From positions 1 to 64,000 of the forward strand of contig JAFIEW010000002.1 in the NCBI GenBank assembly GCA_020832375.1: a DNA stretch of 64,000 nt. The letters are read 5' to 3'. The translations under genes were made by a program, and so were the position numbers. The stretch is from Cyclobacteriaceae bacterium (GTDB lineage: Bacteria > Bacteroidota > Bacteroidia > Cytophagales > Cyclobacteriaceae). Positions 54,101-63,929 of this stretch are shown here, one piece after another; positions within the stretch are counted from its first letter, which is position 1; each line of letters opens with the position of its first letter. The notes below the pieces were generated by a model. The model was given only the letters and a program-made list of their open reading frames with translations, was not told where the DNA came from and did not search any database.

Positions 54101-55261
54101 ATGGTGGAACAAGTGCAAATTTTTGATACCACGCTTAGAGATGGTGAGCAGGTGCCGGGCTGCGGCTTGAGTCCGCAACGCAAGTTAGAAATCGCTAAGC
54201 GACTAGAGGCACTGGGAGTAGATATCATTGAAGCTGGCTTTCCCATTTCAAGTCCTGGAGACTTTGAAGCGGTAAGGCTACTGTCCTCTGAGATCAAAAA
54301 TAGTACGATTTGTGCACTAAGCCGAGCCGTAAAAGCTGACATAGAGTGTGCGGCTCGTGCCTTGGAAGGGGCTGCCAAAGCTCGTATCCATACCGGGATC
54401 GGCACTTCCGATCAGCATGTTCAGACTAAGTTGAGGATGAGTCGTGAAGAGGTAGTCAGGCGAGCAGTAGAAGCAGTAAGTTATGCTCGCACCTTTGTCG
54501 ATGATGTTGAGTTTTATGCTGAAGACGCCGGCAGAACACCCAATGATTTTTTAGCACATATCGTGGAGAAAGCCATCGAGGCTGGTGCTACGGTAGTCAA
54601 CATCCCCGACACCACCGGCTTCTGCCTTCCCGAAGAATATGGAGCCAAGATCAAGTATTTAAAGGATCATGTTCCAAATATTGAAAAAGCTATCATTTCA
54701 TCTCACTGCCACAATGACCTCGGTCTCGCCACTGCCAATAGCATCGCCTCTCTCAGAAATGGAGCACGACAGATCGAATGTACCATCAATGGCATCGGTG
54801 AGCGCGCCGGCAATACTTCGCTAGAAGAGGTGGTGATGATCCTCAAAAAGCATCCCGAACTCAATTTAGAGACGCGCATCAATACTCAGGAGCTCTTCCC
54901 TATCAGCCGCCTAGTTGCTGAACGCATGAATATGCCCGTGCAGTCCAATAAGGCGGTGGTAGGCGCCAATGCCTTTTCACATTCCTCAGGTATCCATCAG
55001 GATGGCGTCATCAAAAACAGAGAAAATTATGAAATTATCGACCCTTACGAGGTGGGAGTCAACAAGTCAAGCATTATCCTGACGGCTCGCAGTGGCCGCG
55101 CAGCGCTCAATTTCCGATTGGGTGAAATTGGCATCAAGCTCTCTAAAGAAGAGTTGGAGTCCGTTTACGGTAAGTTTGTTGTCCTAGCAGATCAGAAGCA
55201 TACCATAGAGGATGAAGATCTCCGACAGATTATGGTCAGTGAGCCTCATTTTCAAAAATAA
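54101..55261 (+). CDS. leuA: 2-Isopropylmalate synthase, catalytic domain only
   Basis: A 386-residue enzyme that condenses acetyl-CoA with 2-ketoisovalerate, the committed step to leucine. The TIM barrel shows [12 protein letters not shown] (8-19), [12 protein letters not shown] and the metal motif SSHCHNDLG, then [14 protein letters not shown] and [10 protein letters not shown] of the linker. It stops where the LeuA dimer/regulatory domain, about 120 residues that bind leucine in longer enzymes, should begin. Feedback inhibition through that domain is therefore not expected. Homologous homocitrate or citramalate synthases share the barrel, but the operon context favours leuA. leuC follows after 97 bp containing a repeat arm. 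Confidence 0.9.
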
Positions 55262-55262
55262 G

Positions 55263-55282
55263 TTTTAGCGTGGGATGAGGGG
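55263..55282. repeat. Repeat arm in the leuA-leuC spacer
   Basis: TTTTAGCGTGGGATGAGGGG matches the left arm of the GCGTGGGATGAGG family. A weak partner may be at about 55313-55325. It begins 2 bp after the leuA stop codon. Confidence 0.5.
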
Positions 55283-55358
55283 CTAAGTCGGGCATTTTCA
55301 CCTTCCCCAGCGATCATTCCTACATAATCAACAGCTACTATAGTTATAACAATCAAGC

Positions 55359-56774
55359 ATGACATCAGCAAAAACATTATTTGATAAAATATGGGATCGA
55401 CACCGGGTTCGCTCGGTAGAGGATGGTCCTGACATTTTATATATAGATCGCCACTTCATTCACGAAGTTACCACCCCCCAAGCCTTCGACGGGCTGCGCA
55501 AGCGGGGCATAGGTGTGCTGCGGCCACAACAGACGGTCGCTACGGCAGATCATAATGTGCCTACCAAAGATCAGCACCTTCCTATTCAAGAGGCACTCTC
55601 GCGCAAGCAAGTGGAGAAGCTCACCGAGAATTGCGCCGAGTTTGGTATCGAACTGTATGGCTTGGGTCATCCCTATCAAGGGATTGTGCATGTAATAGGC
55701 CCAGAGTTGGGTATTACGCGCCCCGGCATGACCATCGTCTGCGGCGACAGCCACACTTCTACTCATGGTGCTTTCGGTTGCATCGCTTTCGGAATTGGCA
55801 CCAGCGAGGTAGAGCAAGTGCTTGCGACGCAATGCATTTTGCAAAAACGCCCGAAGAACATGAAAATTGAAGTCAATGGTTCTTTGAGAGATGACGTCAC
55901 CGCCAAGGATCTAATTCTCTATTTGATTTCAAAACTCGGCACAGGCGGCGGAACGGGGCACTTTGTAGAGTTTTGCGGTAGTGCCATTCGTGCATTGAGC
56001 ATGGAGCAGCGCATGACGGTATGTAATATGGCGATCGAAATGGGGGCTAGAGGCGGTTTAATTGCCGCCGATGAGAAAACCTTCGAATATCTGAAAGGCA
56101 GAACTTTTGCACCTCAAGGGGAGCAATGGGAAGCAGCACTCGAAGACTGGAAGCAGCTGCATACTGATGAGGGTGCCCTCTTCGATAGTGTACATACCTT
56201 TGATGCTATCGATATTGAGCCGATGATTACCTTTGGCACCCATCCTGGCATGGGCACTTCGATTAGTGCGGGTATTCCTCATTCGGAAGATCCCTCCTTC
56301 TTAAGTAGTCTCGATTATATGAACTTTCAGCCTGGTCAGCAGCTGTTGGGTCACCCGATAGATTATGTTTTTATCGGTAGTTGTACCAACTCACGAATCG
56401 AGGATTTAAGGGCAGTGGCTCGCTTGGCAAAGGGACGACGTAAGGCTGATAATGTAGAGGTATGGATTGTTCCTGGCTCAAAGCAGGTCGAGGAGCAGGC
56501 AAAGGCAGAAGGCTTGGATCGTGTTTTTGAGGAGGCAGGGTTTGAGCTGCGACAAGCGGGCTGTTCGGCTTGCTTAGGGATGAACGAAGATAAAGTGCCG
56601 GCAGGCAAATACTGCGTGAGCACCTCCAATCGAAACTTTGAAGGCCGACAGGGACCGGGTGCACGTACTTTATTGGCTTCTCCAGAAACAGCGGCAGCAG
56701 CAGCAATTACAGGTAAGATAATGCCAGCTCATGCGCTTACACATCCTGAACACTATAACCTTTCACCGGCATAA
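55359..56774 (+). CDS. leuC: 3-Isopropylmalate dehydratase large subunit
   Basis: A 471-residue aconitase-family iron-sulfur enzyme that, with LeuD, isomerises 2- to 3-isopropylmalate. The cluster cysteines are in [11 protein letters not shown] and [12 protein letters not shown]; other motifs are [19 protein letters not shown] and [20 protein letters not shown] near the C-terminus. Length is standard. leuD starts 3 bp after its stop, so translation is probably coupled. Confidence 0.97.
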
Positions 56775-56777
56775 GAC

Positions 56778-57389
56778 ATGGAAAAATTCAAATATATAAA
56801 ATCTACAGCAGCGCTCATCGCAAAGGAGAATATCGATACGGATCAGATCATTCCGGCGCGCTTTCTGAAGGCTACTTCACGTGCCGGCTTTGGTGAAAAT
56901 CTATTTCGTGATTGGCGCTATCATGCTGACGGCAGCTTAAAGGAGGATTTTGTATTAAATACGCATCCCTACCCCTCCAAAATATTAGTGGCAGGTAAGA
57001 ACTTCGGCTGTGGATCGAGTCGTGAGCATGCTGCATGGGCATTGGTAGACTTTGGATTCAGAGTGGTCGTCAGTGCCTACTTTGCGGATATCTTTAAAAA
57101 TAACGCACTCAACAACGGCCTTTTACCTGTTCAGGTAAGTGAGGCTTTCTCTGAAGTTCTCATTCAAAAGTTGAAGTCCAATGAAGCCACTGAACTGGAA
57201 GTAGACCTAGATACGCAAAGCATTCATATCGCCGGCACAGAGGAAAAAGAACTTTTTGAGATCAACAGCTATAAGAAGTATTGCTTGCAAAATGGCCTCG
57301 ACGATATCGATTTTCTTTTGGACAATCGATCTGAGATAGAAGCTTATGAAGCTTCTGAGAAGAAAAAATCATGGGTAGCTTTTTACTAA
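56778..57389 (+). CDS. leuD: 3-Isopropylmalate dehydratase small subunit
   Basis: A 203-residue swivel-domain subunit that completes the LeuCD enzyme. It shows IDTDQIIPARFLK, GKNFGCGSSREHAAWAL (the conserved CGSSREHA substrate loop) and FADIFKNNALNNGLLPV. Length is typical. It lies 3 bp after leuC and 13 bp before leuB. Confidence 0.97.
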   Translation: MEKFKYIKSTAALIAKENIDTDQIIPARFLKATSRAGFGENLFRDWRYHADGSLKEDFVLNTHPYPSKILVAGKNFGCGSSREHAAWALVDFGFRVVVSAYFADIFKNNALNNGLLPVQVSEAFSEVLIQKLKSNEATELEVDLDTQSIHIAGTEEKELFEINSYKKYCLQNGLDDIDFLLDNRSEIEAYEASEKKKSWVAFY

Positions 57390-57402
57390 AATCAACAGAA
57401 AG

Positions 57403-58479
57403 ATGCAGAAGAAAATAGCAGTTTTAGCGGGCGACGGTATCGGGCCTGAGGTTTGTAGGGAGGCGATACGCGTGCTGGATGCGGTGGCTCAGCGATTTGG
57501 TCATCAGTGGGAATATGATCATGCGATAGTAGGTGCAGCTGCGATCGATGCCACGGGCGACCCTTATCCTGCGGCGACGCAGGCGGCCTGTAAAGGTGCG
57601 GATGCCATCTTATTTGGTGCTATTGGTGACCCCAAATACGACAATGACCCTTCTGCCAAAGTACGACCCGAGCAGGGCTTGCTGAAAATGCGCAAAGACC
57701 TCAATTTATTTGCCAATATCCGTCCTGTTACAGCTTATGAGCCACTCTTGGAGATGAGTCCTCTAAAGTCACATATCATTTCAGGTACCGACTTTGTGGT
57801 CTTTAGAGAGCTGACGGGTGGTATTTATTTCGGTCAGCCGCGGGGGAGAAGTGAAGATGGCAGTACTGCCTTCGACAGCTGCATCTACCATGTAGAGGAA
57901 ATCGACCGCGTAAGCAGGTTGGCTTTTCAAGCTGCGGAAAATCGAAAAGCTAAGCTCACCTTGGTAGACAAAGCCAATGTGTTGGCTACCTCGCGACTGT
58001 GGCGAGACCGTGTGAAAAAGATGGCCGCTGAGTTTCCTAAAGTTGAGGTAGACTATATGTTTGTCGATAATGCGGCCATGAAGATCATCCAGCAGCCGGC
58101 AAGCTTCGACGTCATCTTAACGGAAAATATGTTTGGTGATATCCTCACCGATGAGGCTTCAGTAATTTCAGGTAGTCTCGGACTACTGCCTTCAGCATCG
58201 GTTGGGGGTGAGCACATGCTCTTTGAGCCGATTCATGGCTCTTATCCTCAGGCTGCAGGGCAGAATCGCGCGAATCCCATGGGTGCCATTTTATCGGCTG
58301 CCATGATGATCGACTATGCTTTTGGGTGTAAAGAAGAAAGCGATTGCATAAAATTAGCTTTGGAAGACTGCCTTCTAGCTGGGGAGGGAACAGAAGATTT
58401 GTTTCCGAAAAGCGCAAAAACAACAGAAGAAGTTGGAAGTGTTATTGCTAATAGGCTACTTAAACTATCTGAAGTTTAA
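57403..58479 (+). CDS. leuB: 3-Isopropylmalate dehydrogenase
   Basis: A 358-residue NAD-dependent decarboxylating dehydrogenase that makes 2-ketoisocaproate, the last leucine precursor. It shows LAGDGIGPEV at the N-terminus, the substrate region LLKMRKDLNLFANIRP and RELTGGIYFG, and the metal-binding VDNAAMKI/ENMFGDILTDEAS, then EPIHGSYPQAAGQNRANP. It is the last leu gene; 251 bp separate it from ilvE and hold the predicted attenuator. Confidence 0.96.
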   Translation: MQKKIAVLAGDGIGPEVCREAIRVLDAVAQRFGHQWEYDHAIVGAAAIDATGDPYPAATQAACKGADAILFGAIGDPKYDNDPSAKVRPEQGLLKMRKDLNLFANIRPVTAYEPLLEMSPLKSHIISGTDFVVFRELTGGIYFGQPRGRSEDGSTAFDSCIYHVEEIDRVSRLAFQAAENRKAKLTLVDKANVLATSRLWRDRVKKMAAEFPKVEVDYMFVDNAAMKIIQQPASFDVILTENMFGDILTDEASVISGSLGLLPSASVGGEHMLFEPIHGSYPQAAGQNRANPMGAILSAAMMIDYAFGCKEESDCIKLALEDCLLAGEGTEDLFPKSAKTTEEVGSVIANRLLKLSEV

Positions 58480-58532: not shown

Positions 58533-58540
58533 TACCTTTG
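58533..58540 (+). promoter_or_regulatory. -7 element for the ilv leader transcript
   Basis: TACCTTTG is an exact TAnnTTTG match, 16 nt before the leader-peptide ATG at 58557. A good -33 TTG at the standard spacing is not present (TTTTC lies there). It implies a transcript starting near 58546 inside the leuB-ilvE gap. Confidence 0.5.
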
Positions 58541-58556
58541 GACAAAAGAACAGCAG

Positions 58557-58652
58557 ATGTACCAAAACTTATTCGTCATAGTGAACCTCCTGATTATTAG
58601 CGTGATCATTCTGATTTCGCCGCAGAGGTGGTATGACTATGGGATAAGTTAA
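58557..58652 (+). CDS. Branched-chain amino-acid leader peptide (31 aa)
   Basis: An ORF encoding a 31-residue peptide in which 13 of residues 5-20 are Leu, Ile or Val (LFVIVNLLIISVIILI), followed by SPQRWYDYGIS. This is the hallmark of leader peptides that sense charged tRNA levels for branched-chain amino acids; by composition and length it resembles the ilv leader peptide of enteric bacteria. It lies between a -7 element and a terminator hairpin before ilvE, and its Gln-Arg-Trp codons form part of the antiterminator. The peptide itself need have no function. The alternative that this is a random ORF is unlikely given the codon run and paired RNA structures. Confidence 0.75.
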   Translation: MYQNLFVIVNLLIISVIILISPQRWYDYGIS

Positions 58653-58711
58653 AAAAATATAATTACTTTCTTCATAAAGCGCCACCTCCCAACGGAAGTG
58701 GCGCTTTTTTT
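58585..58711 (+). promoter_or_regulatory. Predicted transcription attenuator upstream of ilvE
   Basis: Four segments form alternative pairings. Segment 1 ACCTCCTG (58585-58592) pairs with segment 2 CAGAGGT (58623-58629, one bulge). Segment 2 GAGGTGG (58625-58631) also pairs perfectly with segment 3 CCACCTC (58682-58688). Segment 3 within GCGCCAC (58679-58685) pairs with segment 4 GTGGCGC (58698-58704), followed by T7. A ribosome stalled in the Ile/Leu/Val codons (58587-58616) would cover segment 1 and favour the 2:3 antiterminator; one that reaches the stop codon covers segment 2 and lets the 3:4 terminator form. Confidence 0.75.
58676..58711 (+). terminator. Attenuator terminator hairpin before ilvE
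   Basis: AAAGCGCCAC and GTGGCGCTTT form the stem, with an extra inner TCC/GGA pairing, followed by seven T (58705-58711). It ends 19 nt before the ilvE ATG, far too close to serve leuB alone. Confidence 0.9.
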
Positions 58712-58730
58712 ATTTCTAAATCTCAAGCAT

Positions 58731-59621
58731 ATGTATTTCAACGATCAGACAATTGTTTTTCACGACGGCGAATGGAAAAAAGCCAAAGATGCCACAACAG
58801 GGCTCTACAACCAAACCATGCACTATGGCAATGGGGTATTTGAAGGGATCAGAGCTTATAAGAGCACGGTGGGCTTCAACGTATTTAAAGCGCATGAGCA
58901 TTACGAGCGCTTACATCGATCGGCTCAAATGATGCATATTAAGCTCGATTACTCAGTTGAGGAGTTGGTAAGCATCACCTACGATCTGATAGAGCGCAAT
59001 GACTTTGCAGATGCCTACATTCGACCATTGGTTTATTTGGGTGCCAATATGTCGCTGCAGCCGGTGGATGAAACACATCTGTTCATTTGTGCTTGGAAGT
59101 GGGCCAAATATTTGGGGGATGATCCGATCAAAGCCAAGATCTCTTCTTATCGACGTATTCACCCTGCCTCTCAACATGTGGAGGCAAAGGTAGTCGGCCA
59201 TTATACCAACTCTATCTTGGCAACTACAGAAGCTAAGCGAGCAGGTTTCAACGAAGCAATTTTGCTCGATCACAATGGCTTTGTGTCTGAAGGTTCAGGT
59301 GCCAATATCTTTTTAGAAAAAGACGGCGAGCTTTTTACCCCCAATCGTGGGAATATCCTGCCTGGCATCACTCGTGCTACGGTACTGGATTTATGTAAAG
59401 AATTGGGCATTCGTGTTACCGAAAAGCCGATCACACAGCAGCAACTGATGGAGGCAGATGCGGCCTTTTTTGCCGGAACAGCAGTAGAAATCGCCTCGAT
59501 CTCTCAAGTAGATGATAAAATCTTTCCATTGGCTTATGAAGACTCTCTTGCCCATGGTCTTTATGAAATGTATCGACAAAAAGTATTATTCAACGACTTA
59601 CAAAATCAAACTATCATATAA
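58731..59621 (+). CDS. ilvE: Branched-chain amino-acid aminotransferase
   Basis: A 296-residue PLP enzyme (fold type IV) for the last step to Leu, Ile and Val. It shows GLYNQTMHYGNGVFEGIRAY, the PLP lysine region HVEAKVVGHYTNSILA, and the phosphate-binding EAILLDHNGFVSEGSGANIF; LPGITRATVLDL and FFAGTAVEIASI are further family motifs. ATG 58731 is the start; the upstream GTG at 58698 lies in the terminator stem. It is the first structural gene after the attenuator, and ilvD starts at the base after its stop codon. Confidence 0.96.
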   Translation: MYFNDQTIVFHDGEWKKAKDATTGLYNQTMHYGNGVFEGIRAYKSTVGFNVFKAHEHYERLHRSAQMMHIKLDYSVEELVSITYDLIERNDFADAYIRPLVYLGANMSLQPVDETHLFICAWKWAKYLGDDPIKAKISSYRRIHPASQHVEAKVVGHYTNSILATTEAKRAGFNEAILLDHNGFVSEGSGANIFLEKDGELFTPNRGNILPGITRATVLDLCKELGIRVTEKPITQQQLMEADAAFFAGTAVEIASISQVDDKIFPLAYEDSLAHGLYEMYRQKVLFNDLQNQTII

Positions 59622-61301
59622 ATGAGCCAAGGTTTTAATAAATATAGCAAGATCGTCACCCAAGCAGCAGATCAGCCGGCTTCACAGGCCATGCTGCATG
59701 CCATAGGACTAACGGATAAAGACTTTCAAAACCCTTTGATCGGTATTGCGAGCACTGGCTTCGAAGGAAACCCCTGCAATATGCATCTCAATGATTTGGC
59801 TGTAGATGTGAAAAAAAGCATCGCTGCCTACGAGTGGACAGGCTTGATTTTCAATACCATCGGGGTAAGCGACGGCATCTCTATGGGTACTCCGGGTATG
59901 AGATATTCTTTGCCTTCTCGCGACATTATTGCCGACTCAATGGAGACAGTGGTTAATGCGCAAGCTTATGATGCCTTGGTGGCCATTACGGGATGTGATA
60001 AAAACATGCCGGGGGCGCTCATTGCACTGGGCAGGCTGGATCGTCCTGCCATCATCGTATATGGAGGCACCATAGCACCGGGGTGCTACATGGACGAAAA
60101 ACTAGACATCGTTTCTGCATTTGAGGCGCTTGGCAAGAAGCAGGCCGGTACCATCACTGAGGAGCATTTCAAAGGGGTCGTGCAAAATGCTTGTCCTGGG
60201 CCGGGTGCTTGTGGGGGGATGTATACTGCCAATACCATGGCTTCTACCATCGAGGCTTTAGGATTATGCCTTCCTTATGGTGCCTCTAATCCCGCTAATA
60301 GCACTGAGAAAAGAAAAGAATGCGAAGCGGTGGGTAAAGCCATCCGCTATTTGATAGAAAATGACCTCACCCCTCGTAAGATTGTGAGTAAGAAGTCATT
60401 TGAAAATGCCATTGCATTGATTACTGTGCTGGGTGGATCTACCAATGCGGTACTGCATGTCTTGGCGGTAGCTCATGCCTTCGACATTGACGTGACGCTA
60501 CAGGACTTTGCGGAAATCAGTGCAAAAACGCCTTATCTGGCCGACTTGAAGCCTAGCGGGAAATATTTGATGGAAGACCTTCACCTTAGAGGGGGTATTC
60601 CCGCAGTGATGAAGCTGATGCTGGAAGAGGGATTGCTTCACGGCGACTGCATGACCATTACCGGAAAAACATTGGTCGAAAACTTGAGCGAAGTGCAAGG
60701 CTTTTCGGAAGATCAGGATATCGTAAGGCCGGTGAGCAATCCGATCAAAGCTACTGGGCACCTGCGCATATTATTCGGCAATTTAGCAGAAGAAGGTGCT
60801 GTCGCTAAGATTACGGGTAAGGAGGGCGAGCTTTTTGAAGGCACTGCGCGTGTTTACGAGGGTGAGTTCGATGCTAATGATGGCATTGCTCGCGGCGAGA
60901 TCAAAGCGGGTGATGTGGTGGTGATTCGATATGAAGGGCCTAAAGGTGGGCCTGGAATGCCTGAGATGCTGAAACCTACCTCTGCCATAATGGGCGCAGG
61001 ACTGGGCAAGGAAGTGGCACTCATCACTGATGGCCGCTTCAGTGGCGGTACTCACGGATTTGTAGTGGGACATATCTCACCCGAAGCAAAGGAAGGCGGC
61101 CTCTTGGCATACGTGAAAAATGGCGACCGAATCAAAATCGATGCAAGAGCCAATACCATCGAGCTCTTGGTGAGCGACGAAGAAATTGCTAAGCGAAAAA
61201 AGGAAAAGCCGGTAGTACCTGATCGTAAGATTAGTGGCAGCTTAAAGAAGTATGCCAAATTGGTATCCTCAGCCTCTTTGGGATGTATCACCGATTTGTA
61301 A
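59622..61301 (+). CDS. ilvD: Dihydroxy-acid dehydratase
   Basis: A 559-residue iron-sulfur dehydratase that produces the 2-keto acids for valine and isoleucine, and indirectly leucine. Cluster cysteines are in [15 protein letters not shown] and [16 protein letters not shown]. Length of about 560 residues matches the plant/cyanobacterial subfamily, which is known for a 2Fe-2S cluster, rather than the 616-residue enteric enzyme. Its ATG directly abuts the ilvE stop codon. The C-terminus carries [21 protein letters not shown] 124-bp gap with a repeat arm precedes ilvB. Confidence 0.97.
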
Positions 61302-61425: not shown

Positions 61426-63159
61426 ATGAAAACAGTAGCAGTAGAAAAACAGGACGAAAAGCAGGCGGAACAATTTTGTAGCGGTGCACACGCACTGGTA
61501 AAAGCATTGATTCACGAAGGTGTAGATACCATATTTGGTTATCCAGGCGGCGCGATCATGCCCGTTTATGATGCGCTCTACGATTTCGAAGGTAAGATTA
61601 AGCACCATATGTCGCGGCATGAGCAGGGTGCTACGCATGCCGCCCAAGGATATGCTAGGCAGTCGGGCAAGCCGGGTGTGTGCTTAGCTACATCAGGGCC
61701 GGGTGCGACCAACTTGATTACAGGGCTGGCCGATGCGCAGCTGGATTCTACGCCTTTGGTGTGCATCACGGGGCAGGTGCCGAGCCAAATGATCGGTACG
61801 GACGCCTTTCAGGAAACGGATGTGGTCAGTATTTCAATGGCCGTGACGAAGTGGAATGTGCAAGTGACCAAGGCTGAGGATATTCCTGCTGCGATTGCGA
61901 AGGCTTTTTACATTGCCAAAAGCGGCAAGCCAGGGCCGGTCTTGGTTGACATCACCAAAGATGCTCAATTTGGCAAGTGCCCCGACACCTACGAGCGCTG
62001 CGATCAGGTGCGCTCTTACATTGCAAAGCCTAAGATCGACCCTTTGGCAATCGAACAAGCGGCGCAAGCAATCGCAGAGGCTAAGAAGCCACTAGTACTT
62101 TTTGGTCATGGGGTATTGCTTGCCAATGCTAAGGATGAGTTTCGTGAGTTCATCGAAAAATCTGGCATGCCTGCCGCTTGGACCATATTAGGTCTTTCAG
62201 CTTTGGCTACGGATCATCCTCAAAATGTGGGGATGCTAGGTATGCATGGCAACTATGCACCCAACAAACTAACGAATGAGTGTGACTTACTCATTGCCGT
62301 AGGGATGCGGTTTGACGATCGCGTGACGGGAGATGTGACGCGCTATGCCAAGCAGGCAAAGGTGATTCATATTGAAATCGATCCTGCCGAAATAGATAAA
62401 AATGTGAAGGCTGACATTCCGATTCTGGGCGACTGTAGGGAGGCTCTGCAGCGGCTCATCCCCCACCTACAGCGAAAAGACTATCAGGATTGGTATGCTA
62501 CCTTCAGCGCCTTGGATGCCGAAGAGCAGGAGCAGGTGATACAGCGCGATCTTTTTCCCGATGAAAGCGCACCGCTCAGCATGGGCGAGGTGATCCGTCA
62601 TTTATCAGACATTAGCAAGGGCAGTGCGGTATTGGTAACGGATGTCGGACAGCATCAAATGGTGGCGCAGCGCTACTATCGCTTTGGAGAGTGGAATAGC
62701 AATATTACGAGTGGTGGACTGGGTACAATGGGTTTTGCTTTACCCGCTGCAATAGGTGCTAAACTGGCGGCACCGCACCGGCAGGTGGTTGCCGTAATCG
62801 GGGATGGAGGCTTTCAAATGACCCTTCAGGAGTTGGGGATGATCATGGAGGCAGGAATCGCCGTGAAAATTTTGATTCTCAATAATCAATTTTTGGGCAT
62901 GGTAAGACAGTGGCAGGATATGTTTTTTGAAAAACGATATTCCTCAGTGGATATGAGCAATCCTGACTTCTTGATGATTGCTAAAGCATACGGCATTGAA
63001 GGTCAGCAAGTGAGCGAGCGGGCCGACCTAGAGAAGGCAATGCATACCTTCCTCTCTCACCCGAAGAGCTACTTGCTGGAGGTGATGGTGGGCAAAGAAG
63101 ATAATATTTTCCCAATGATACCGAGTGGTGCCGCCGTAGATGAAATCCGATTGAAATAA
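61426..63159 (+). CDS. ilvB: Acetolactate synthase large (catalytic) subunit
   Basis: A 577-residue ThDP- and FAD-dependent enzyme that condenses pyruvate with pyruvate or 2-ketobutyrate, the first common step to Val/Leu and Ile. It shows GYPGGAIMPVYDAL, the catalytic Glu region RHEQGATHAAQGYAR, GPGATNLITGLADA, and the ThDP motif GDGGFQMTLQELGM to NNQFLGMVRQWQ. An early 20-residue extension is usual for the anabolic form. The regulatory subunit gene follows after a 224-bp gap that holds a repeat arm. Confidence 0.97.
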   Translation: MKTVAVEKQDEKQAEQFCSGAHALVKALIHEGVDTIFGYPGGAIMPVYDALYDFEGKIKHHMSRHEQGATHAAQGYARQSGKPGVCLATSGPGATNLITGLADAQLDSTPLVCITGQVPSQMIGTDAFQETDVVSISMAVTKWNVQVTKAEDIPAAIAKAFYIAKSGKPGPVLVDITKDAQFGKCPDTYERCDQVRSYIAKPKIDPLAIEQAAQAIAEAKKPLVLFGHGVLLANAKDEFREFIEKSGMPAAWTILGLSALATDHPQNVGMLGMHGNYAPNKLTNECDLLIAVGMRFDDRVTGDVTRYAKQAKVIHIEIDPAEIDKNVKADIPILGDCREALQRLIPHLQRKDYQDWYATFSALDAEEQEQVIQRDLFPDESAPLSMGEVIRHLSDISKGSAVLVTDVGQHQMVAQRYYRFGEWNSNITSGGLGTMGFALPAAIGAKLAAPHRQVVAVIGDGGFQMTLQELGMIMEAGIAVKILILNNQFLGMVRQWQDMFFEKRYSSVDMSNPDFLMIAKAYGIEGQQVSERADLEKAMHTFLSHPKSYLLEVMVGKEDNIFPMIPSGAAVDEIRLK

Positions 63160-63383: not shown

Positions 63384-63929
63384 ATGAAAACAATGAAAGA
63401 ACAATTCACGATAAGCATTTATACCGAAAATACGATTGGTATTTTGCACCGTATCACGACGATCTTTACGCGTCGGCATATCAATATTGAGAGCATTACT
63501 GCCTCGGAGAGTGAAGTACCTGATATTCATCGATACACCATTGTGGTGTGTCAAGAAGATGAAAAGGTGCGGAAGGTAGTGAAGCAAATCGAAAAGCAGA
63601 TTGATGTGTTCAAAGCTTTTTATCATCCCAATGATGAGGTGGTAAGGCAAGAGCTGGCGCTATATAAAATGCCTACCCAAGCTTTTTCCAACACAAGGGA
63701 GGTGGAAAAGATTGTGCGCAAGCATCATGCGCGCTTGCTGGCTGTGGAGCCGGAGTTTACCATCATCGAAAAAACAGGCTACAAAACAGAAACACAGGCC
63801 CTTTTTGATGAACTAAAGGCCTACGGATTATTGGAATTCGTGCGTAGCGGCTGGATTTCGATCAGTAAACCAATGAAAGAATTTCAAGACTACCTCAAAG
63901 AGGTAGAGGAAGCATCAAAAAATAAGTAA
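63384..63929 (+). CDS. ilvN: Acetolactate synthase small (regulatory) subunit
   Basis: A 181-residue regulatory subunit. The N-terminal ACT domain has FTISIYTENTIGILHRITTIF and INIESITASESEVPDIHRYTIVV, which bind valine or other end products in relatives; the C-terminal ACT-like half covers about residues 85-170. Expected role: activate and confer feedback control on IlvB. Two in-frame ATGs (63384 and 63393) are equally possible. ilvC begins 40 bp after its stop codon. Confidence 0.93.
   Translation: MKTMKEQFTISIYTENTIGILHRITTIFTRRHINIESITASESEVPDIHRYTIVVCQEDEKVRKVVKQIEKQIDVFKAFYHPNDEVVRQELALYKMPTQAFSNTREVEKIVRKHHARLLAVEPEFTIIEKTGYKTETQALFDELKAYGLLEFVRSGWISISKPMKEFQDYLKEVEEASKNK

Follow-up and report, generated by a model that had tools for sequence, protein, structure and literature searches.

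A probable leader-peptide transcription attenuator upstream of ilvE in a Cyclobacteriaceae bacterium, and similar leaders across Bacteroidota

The branched-chain amino acid genes of the Cyclobacteriaceae bacterium considered here lie in a leu-ilv cluster, and the gap between leuB and ilvE raises the question of how the transcription of ilvE and of the genes behind it might be controlled. The window, by which we mean the whole stretch of 64,000 nucleotides that was analysed, belongs to a 4.1 Mb draft genome, the sole member of its genus among 148 family genomes drawn. For leuA, leuC, leuD, leuB, ilvE, ilvD, ilvB and ilvN alike an NCBIfam model scored above cut-off (NF002086 for LeuA), and the genes are arranged as follows:

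54101-58479, forward strand: leuACDB, the upstream cluster, with the end of leuB at 58479
58731-59621, forward strand: ilvE, branched-chain amino-acid transaminase, putatively the first controlled gene (NF005146 and TIGR01122 above cut-off)
59622-61301, forward strand: ilvD, dihydroxy-acid dehydratase
61426-63159, forward strand: ilvB, acetolactate synthase large subunit
63384-63929, forward strand: ilvN, acetolactate synthase small subunit (TIGR00119 above cut-off)

Beyond the 3' end of the window (L220) follow ketol-acid reductoisomerase (ilvC) and then threonine dehydratase with a regulatory domain (ilvA). The original prediction of an ilvEDBNC target was thus right for ilvEDBN and ilvC, but too short, as the cluster runs on into ilvA. 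We conclude that the gap very probably contains a ribosome-mediated (leader-peptide) transcription attenuator for ilvEDBNC, and probably for ilvA; the genes downstream of it, in the window and beyond, make the amino acids that it would sense. Its parts are:

58533-58540, forward strand: promoter-like -7 element TACCTTTG, of the TAnnTTTG type, starting 24 nt 5' of the leader ATG
58557-58652, forward strand: leader peptide ORF MYQNLFVIVNLLIISVIILISPQRWYDYGIS, 31 codons from ATG to TAA, with the stop codon at 58650-58652
58569-58616, forward strand: run of putative control codons (codons 5-20), 13 of 16 for Ile, Leu or Val
58566-58591, forward strand: segment 1, 5' arm of a protector hairpin in the minimum-energy fold, overlapping the control codons
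58625-58632, forward strand: segment 2, 5' arm of the predicted antiterminator, within the tail of the leader ORF and mostly shared with the protector 3' arm (58626-58650)
58676-58689, forward strand: segment 3, 5' arm of the terminator, of which 58681-58688 can pair with segment 2 too
58676-58707, forward strand: intrinsic terminator hairpin (3:4), predicted from sequence and fold
58705-58711, forward strand: terminator T-run of seven T, read directly

On re-reading, the -7 element, the 31-codon ORF and the 13 Ile, Leu or Val among residues 5-20 proved right to the base as first described, and the coordinates of two pairings were confirmed directly: GAGGTGG (58625-58631) is complementary to CCACCTC (58682-58688), and GCGCCAC (58679-58685) pairs with GTGGCGC (58698-58704), the seven T standing immediately 3' of it. 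The 1:2 pairing originally proposed (58585-58592 with 58623-58629) exists but was drawn too small, being merely the inner part of a hairpin of 58566-58591 with 58626-58650 (predicted at -28.4 kcal/mol). The folding energy is -20.7 kcal/mol for the terminator (58675-58712; z -6.85 against shuffles) and -49.4 kcal/mol for the whole 170-nt leader (z -4.51), the latter equalled by none of 200 shuffles. On both strands of the 64 kb, only two ORFs of 10-60 aa hold at least 10 Ile, Leu or Val in 12 residues, the leader being one of them. A further scan, for runs of at least 8 in 12 with a terminator behind them, singled out the leader alone in the window. A generic promoter and terminator scan of the window gave matches no commoner than in shuffles; the leader terminator, with its simple loop of 12 nt, was absent from the list of that scan, which allowed loops of at most 8 nt, and the scan was set aside. 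Megablast of the leader against plasmids gave no match.

According to the mechanism that we propose, transcription would start near 58546 or read in from leuB, and a ribosome would trail RNA polymerase along the leader ORF. Under a shortage of charged Ile-, Val- or Leu-tRNA, the ribosome would stall in codons 5-19 and cover segment 1, leaving segment 2 free to pair with segment 3, so that the terminator would not form and ilvE would be transcribed. When Ile, Val and Leu are plentiful, it would reach the stop codon at 58650-58652 and cover segment 2, and the 3:4 terminator (58676-58711) would form. A leader that is not translated would have segment 2 hidden in the long 1:2 hairpin, and should lead to termination as well.

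These states were modelled with RNA polymerase halted just beyond segment 3 and a virtual ribosome placed on each codon, its front edge at +15 nt; the result consists of equilibrium folds of truncated RNAs rather than kinetics, and shows possibility, not rates. In the window the modelled probability of the 2:3 antiterminator was 0.93-0.94 with the ribosome on codons 1-2, 0.99 on codons 3-18, 0.84 on codon 19, 0.45 on codon 20, 0.01 on codon 21 and 0.00 from codon 22 onward, including the stop, and it was 0.11 without a ribosome. By this profile all control codons except the last are well placed for stalling, and an untranslated window leader should terminate. The stall geometry proposed originally, with control codons on segment 1 and the stop 3' of segment 2, works in silico in these folds.

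Conservation of the Ile/Leu/Val run and of the pairings in relatives had been put forward as the check on this reading, and both are conserved: run and terminator precede ilvE at 54 of 64 loci in one set and 61 of 79 in another, and the alternative pairs covary, as described below. A locus passed if, within 600 nt 5' of ilvE, an ORF of 10-60 codons contained at least 8 Ile, Leu or Val in 12 and a terminator hairpin lay at most 130 nt after the ORF stop. The first set, from an IlvE search of the 148 family genomes, comprised 64 loci with close IlvE, window included (G037 gave two), and none of 192 dinucleotide shuffles passed. The second was drawn from named genomes (80 records, one cut too short to test; five of the 61 passing loci repeat family loci), and its passing genera include Fulvivirga, Chryseolinea, Roseivirga, Pontibacter, Hymenobacter, Chitinophaga, Pedobacter, Ferruginibacter, Flavobacterium, Chryseobacterium and Tenacibaculum. 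Of the 29 loci in another set, taken from the wider phylum, 18 passed, and 3 of these were repeats. The 8 loci whose IlvE is most divergent (E 4.8e-60 to 1.4e-53) all failed. The same test gave 10 background matches outside ilvE leaders in 1.07 Mb, both strands counted, of sequence taken from the window and from alternate named loci, 40 of the 80; two of the ten look genuine, with an I/V-rich leader and a terminator between ilvE and ilvD in Pedobacter (L124:7080, L126:6937).

The 28 failures of the strict test (10 of 64 family and 18 of 79 named loci) were re-scanned with relaxed limits. About 13 of them have a weaker leader (5-7 Ile, Leu or Val in 12) with a terminator (L014, L023, L061, L070, L071, L073, L074, L076, L081, L084, L119, L122, L141), and two (L041, L044) have an I/L/V-rich leader at the usual distance 5' of ilvE with no terminator found. 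At the other 13 neither part is convincing (L012, L045, L059, L060, L063, L075, L078, L093, L102, L123, L124, L133, L138); among these, L075 offers only 181 nt upstream, L124 has a unit 3' of ilvE, and at L012, L059, L060, L063 and L078 the end of leuB lies close to ilvE. Some records are odd in themselves: an ilv locus of Bacteroidota type stands in two labelled as Alcanivoracaceae and Thalassovita MAGs (L086, L112), and an identical leader peptide and terminator were obtained from both Amniculibacterium aquaticum and Pedobacter sp. Hv1 (L090/L091), which possibly reflects misbinning or contamination in each case.

Does the alternative pairing persist in relatives as well as the parts? The comparison covers 127 units at 110 loci, of which at least three are doubtful yet counted: L091 and L094, both taken in an overlapping frame, and the first unit of L121, which is probably the end of an upstream gene, a like peptide standing at a similar place in L124, L128 and L161. 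For covariation we aligned 20 of 30 candidate units from close relatives, from segment 2 to the T-run, with fragments cut to a common start. This alignment replaced a first DNA alignment in which segment 2 was misplaced in some rows, and for the antiterminator it leans on the expected register. Ten units were dropped for different spacing or register or for having no clear segment 2 (L003, L004, L005, L042, L053, L058, L087, L110, L113, L121); compared with shuffles, segment 2 is good in seven of them (p <= 0.01) but not in L042, L053 and L087. Among the 20 aligned units, 96.3% of the antiterminator cells are paired, with three pairs altered on both sides and at most 53.1% paired with slid partners, and 95.9% of the terminator cells, with five pairs altered on both sides and at most 55.0% with slid partners. 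The covariation score was matched by none of 500 column shuffles for the antiterminator and the terminator alike. Other controls were weaker: the three both-side antiterminator changes were matched by 18 of 500 column shuffles and by a slide of +3, and the further pair types by 10 of 500 and 95 of 500.

Over 97 distinct terminator arms, the 2:3 pairing of a leader tail with its own terminator arm averages -11.10 kcal/mol, versus -8.19 kcal/mol (sd 0.22) when tails are exchanged, and none of 10000 tail permutations was as low. Unit by unit, 89 of 127 tails beat 95% of 100 shuffled tails (86 of 124 when the three doubtful units are left out). Against foreign tails the pairing is less specific per unit, 27 of 127 standing in the best 5% and 84 of 127 in the best 20%, as would be expected if tails were often alike. 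Among the 89 good units, the median start of segment 2 is 12 nt past the run and its end falls close to the stop codon, and over all 127 units the terminator starts a median of 26 nt 3' of the stop. The compared sequences indicate that a mutually exclusive, predicted antiterminator is evolutionarily maintained.

Applied to the 127 units, the state model gave a mean antiterminator probability of 0.90 when stalled (above 0.5 in 120 units), a value biased upward because segment 2 was picked as the best duplex of each unit, 0.02 at the stop, and 0.70 without a ribosome. The tail-exchange permutation guards against this bias; related sequences are nevertheless non-independent. Since the antiterminator exceeds 0.5 without a ribosome in 92 of 127 units, and is there the predicted default, the long 1:2 hairpin is not general, and most relatives, having no protector state in the model, should read through when untranslated.

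The leader ORF itself was examined in 17 pairs of equal-length leaders from relatives, every unit being used once. Single-base codon differences were 46 synonymous to 49 non-synonymous in the leader frame, as against 24/78 and 15/79 in the other two frames (Fisher p 3e-4 and 2e-6), and on this substitution pattern the putative leader is under coding constraint. A conserved frame and a hydrophobic product would also be expected of a functional small membrane or regulatory protein of 31 aa, with the terminator only setting the level of its mRNA. However, the peptides of relatives share little outside the I/V/L run, range from 16 to 55 aa and interchange I, V and L; the tail of the ORF doubles as an RNA arm and changes in step with the arm of the terminator; and a Pfam search of the peptide gave no match. 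We regard this explanation as very unlikely. The peptide of the proposed attenuator may nonetheless have a second role in trans, by analogy with peTrpL of Sinorhizobium meliloti, for which such a role has been reported (PMC7298713).

The composition of the runs bears on the signal. Ile makes up 41%, Val 23% and Leu 13.5% of the best 12-residue windows of the 127 units, and in the 12 residues up to the end of the run Leu is missing from 35 units, Val from 5 and Ile from 2. Ile and Val therefore appear to be the general signal, with Leu optional, which fits ilvEDBNCA. The run of the original Ile/Leu/Val proposal is conserved, but in the family it is dominated by Ile and Val, not Leu; the window leader carries Leu besides Ile and Val. 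Codon choice is skewed as well: over the 110 loci, GTC accounts for 45% of leader Val codons versus 9% in ilvE of the same loci (higher in 92 loci, lower in 5), and ATT for 70% of leader Ile codons versus 39% (higher in 98, lower in 10), while 90 of 190 leader GTC codons directly precede ATT. The preference may come from tRNA sensing, pausing or RNA structure. The window leader is free of the GTC skew (one of its three Val codons). Among the tRNAs recovered from the host draft assembly, from which some expected tRNAs are missing too, one tRNA-Val(GAC) and no other tRNA-Val was found. A skew of leader Leu codons towards CTA (19% versus 6%) is not claimed, as by locus it was higher in 41 and lower in 25 (p 0.06).

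The genes around the leader occur in two arrangements. In one, which is that of the window, leuB lies directly 5' and a leu-ilv cluster encloses the attenuator, with leuACD before leuB where the DNA suffices (L066, L105, L108, L139, L142, L143 and the extended loci L179-L181); in the other, no leuB is found upstream within the stretch examined (e.g., L008, L009). The second arrangement argues against taking the hairpin for an ordinary terminator of leuACDB, with the ORF there by chance and ilvE on its own constitutive promoter, since the unit precedes ilvE at such loci too. The hairpin does stand 3' of leuB, and leuACDB requires an end; yet by direct reading the gap from the T-run to ilvE is a mere 19 nt, too little for another promoter and start, so that an ilvE transcript started upstream must cross the terminator, and both the ORF run with its frame and the match of segment 2 to the terminator arm are maintained. 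A leuACDB terminator of this kind is, in our judgement, very improbable. Least probable of all is a metabolite-binding riboswitch or a protein-binding leader working the same terminator with the ORF incidental, because, although alternative terminator and antiterminator structures fit riboswitches too, Rfam (release 15) gave 0 families at gathering score, a permissive Rfam scan gave 19 matches all far under cut-off, and no conserved aptamer is apparent, close relatives aligning poorly between segment 2 and the terminator.

As for leuACDB, a leader with a terminator 5' of leuA was found neither in the window nor at 17 other loci, among which an I/L/V-rich ORF stands alone, with no terminator, at L119, L176 and L181, and L125 offers only 343 nt upstream; the separate control of leuACDB that had been suggested has its support in this negative result only. 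The leuA product (54101-55261; 386 aa) aligns with no more than roughly the first 384 of the 516 positions of the profile and seems, from its sequence, to be without the C-terminal part of LeuA. That part of LeuA is regulatory.

The attenuator would need a promoter of its own or read-through from leuB. The TAnnTTTG consensus is one that we take to be the Bacteroidota -7 element, and 43 of the 127 units have the motif TANNTTTG within 80 nt 5' of the leader start, versus a mean of 6.7 and a maximum of 13 in 200 shuffles; the other 84 units have no exact match. The window motif, at -24, supports a putative transcription start near 58546, and a -33 element in the window is unconvincing by eye.

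Moreover, at least two units stand in series 5' of ilvE at 16 of 110 loci in the strict scan, or 15 of 110 without L121, whose tandem is probably spurious. At L107, a Bizionia MAG, three units lie at -436, -292 and -157 from ilvE, the last two peptides being nearly identical; other tandem loci are L015, L016, L019, L030, L056, L058, L067, L087, L088, L096, L101, L110 and L137, and further tandems are seen at L147, L149, L150, L151 and L155. Within tandems each I/V-rich leader ORF has its own terminator; at L042, however, no credible pairing of segments 2 and 3 is seen in the second unit. The promoter-like motif was found within 60 nt of 8 of 16 first units versus 0 of 17 later units (p 0.0009; 8 of 15 versus 0 of 16, p 0.0008, without L121) and of 35 of 94 single units. 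With the motif confined to first units of tandems, a single transcript probably carries all the copies, which would act one after another.

The proposed mechanism is classical attenuation, which seems to be widespread in Bacteroidota with little about it in print. In the attenuators of the enteric ilvGMEDA and leu operons a multivalent Ile/Val/Leu leader places its control codons on segment 1, segment 2 lies in the ORF tail and the terminator precedes the first structural gene. The present leader resembles them in the Ile/Val/Leu run, the segment layout and the terminator before the first gene, a likeness in mechanism; it differs in having no Rfam leader-family match, in lying inside a leu-ilv cluster 5' of ilvE and in its Bacteroidota-type promoter. 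Closer in lineage, "strong clues" for leader peptide attenuation before amino-acid biosynthesis operons have been described in Flavobacterium psychrophilum, of the same phylum (PMC9723704); the main text of that paper contains neither 'ilv' nor 'trp', and an ilv case may stand in its supplement. The original prediction knew of no described case in the lineage: among the matches listed from open-licence papers, no title or start of an abstract described an ilv attenuator in Bacteroidota, but attenuation had already been noted in that phylum. For Bacteroides thetaiotaomicron, sORFs reminiscent of leader peptides have been mentioned (PMC7366714). With the Corynebacterium ilvBNC attenuator and ilvB-II motif (PMC10272879, PMC11857589), a leader ORF or attenuator likewise governs a branched-chain operon, but in another phylum and 5' of ilvB, not ilvE, a distinction drawn from the published descriptions. 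Tandem attenuators are reported for Salmonella mgtCBR, also with more than one leader ORF in an mRNA leader (PMC3641672); these sense two different signals, proline and ATP, whereas the Bacteroidota tandems repeat the Ile/Val(Leu) run with a terminator each.

The host genome carries other candidate leaders. Upstream of trpE (L186:1260-1395) lies a trp leader, the ORF of which has three consecutive Trp codons and a tail complementary to the terminator 3' of it, with no Rfam match at gathering score. The Bacteroid-trp RNA RF01692, a cis-regulatory candidate of Bacteroidetes attached by name to trp genes (PMC2864571), has a gathering score that neither this trp leader nor the ilvE leader reached. 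About 90 nt upstream of hisG (L182, reverse complement, 1184-1255) a 23-codon ORF holds 7 His in 12 residues with no recognised terminator, and is perhaps a translational attenuator.

Taken jointly, the Bacteroidota Ile/Val attenuators, widespread and often serial on one transcript, could form a multi-stage valve in which the GTC/ATT dialect of the leader tunes the tRNA that is sensed, a tentative proposal to which we give a little less than an even chance. If such a valve exists, the polymerase would have to pass every terminator, and expression would depend on the read-through probabilities of the single units multiplied together, which would make it switch-like. Such serial copies, a new variant if confirmed in the relatives, would allow a direct test of whether stacked like attenuators sharpen a response, and the presence of the unit in Cytophagales, Chitinophaga, Pedobacter and flavobacteria makes it testable in easily handled species. 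Bacteroidota make little use of Shine-Dalgarno initiation, and transcription-translation coupling in the phylum must work largely without such sites. The ilvE leader gives a concrete, alignable model of translation-based amino-acid sensing in a phylum whose regulation of biosynthetic operons is, in the searchable papers, sparsely described.
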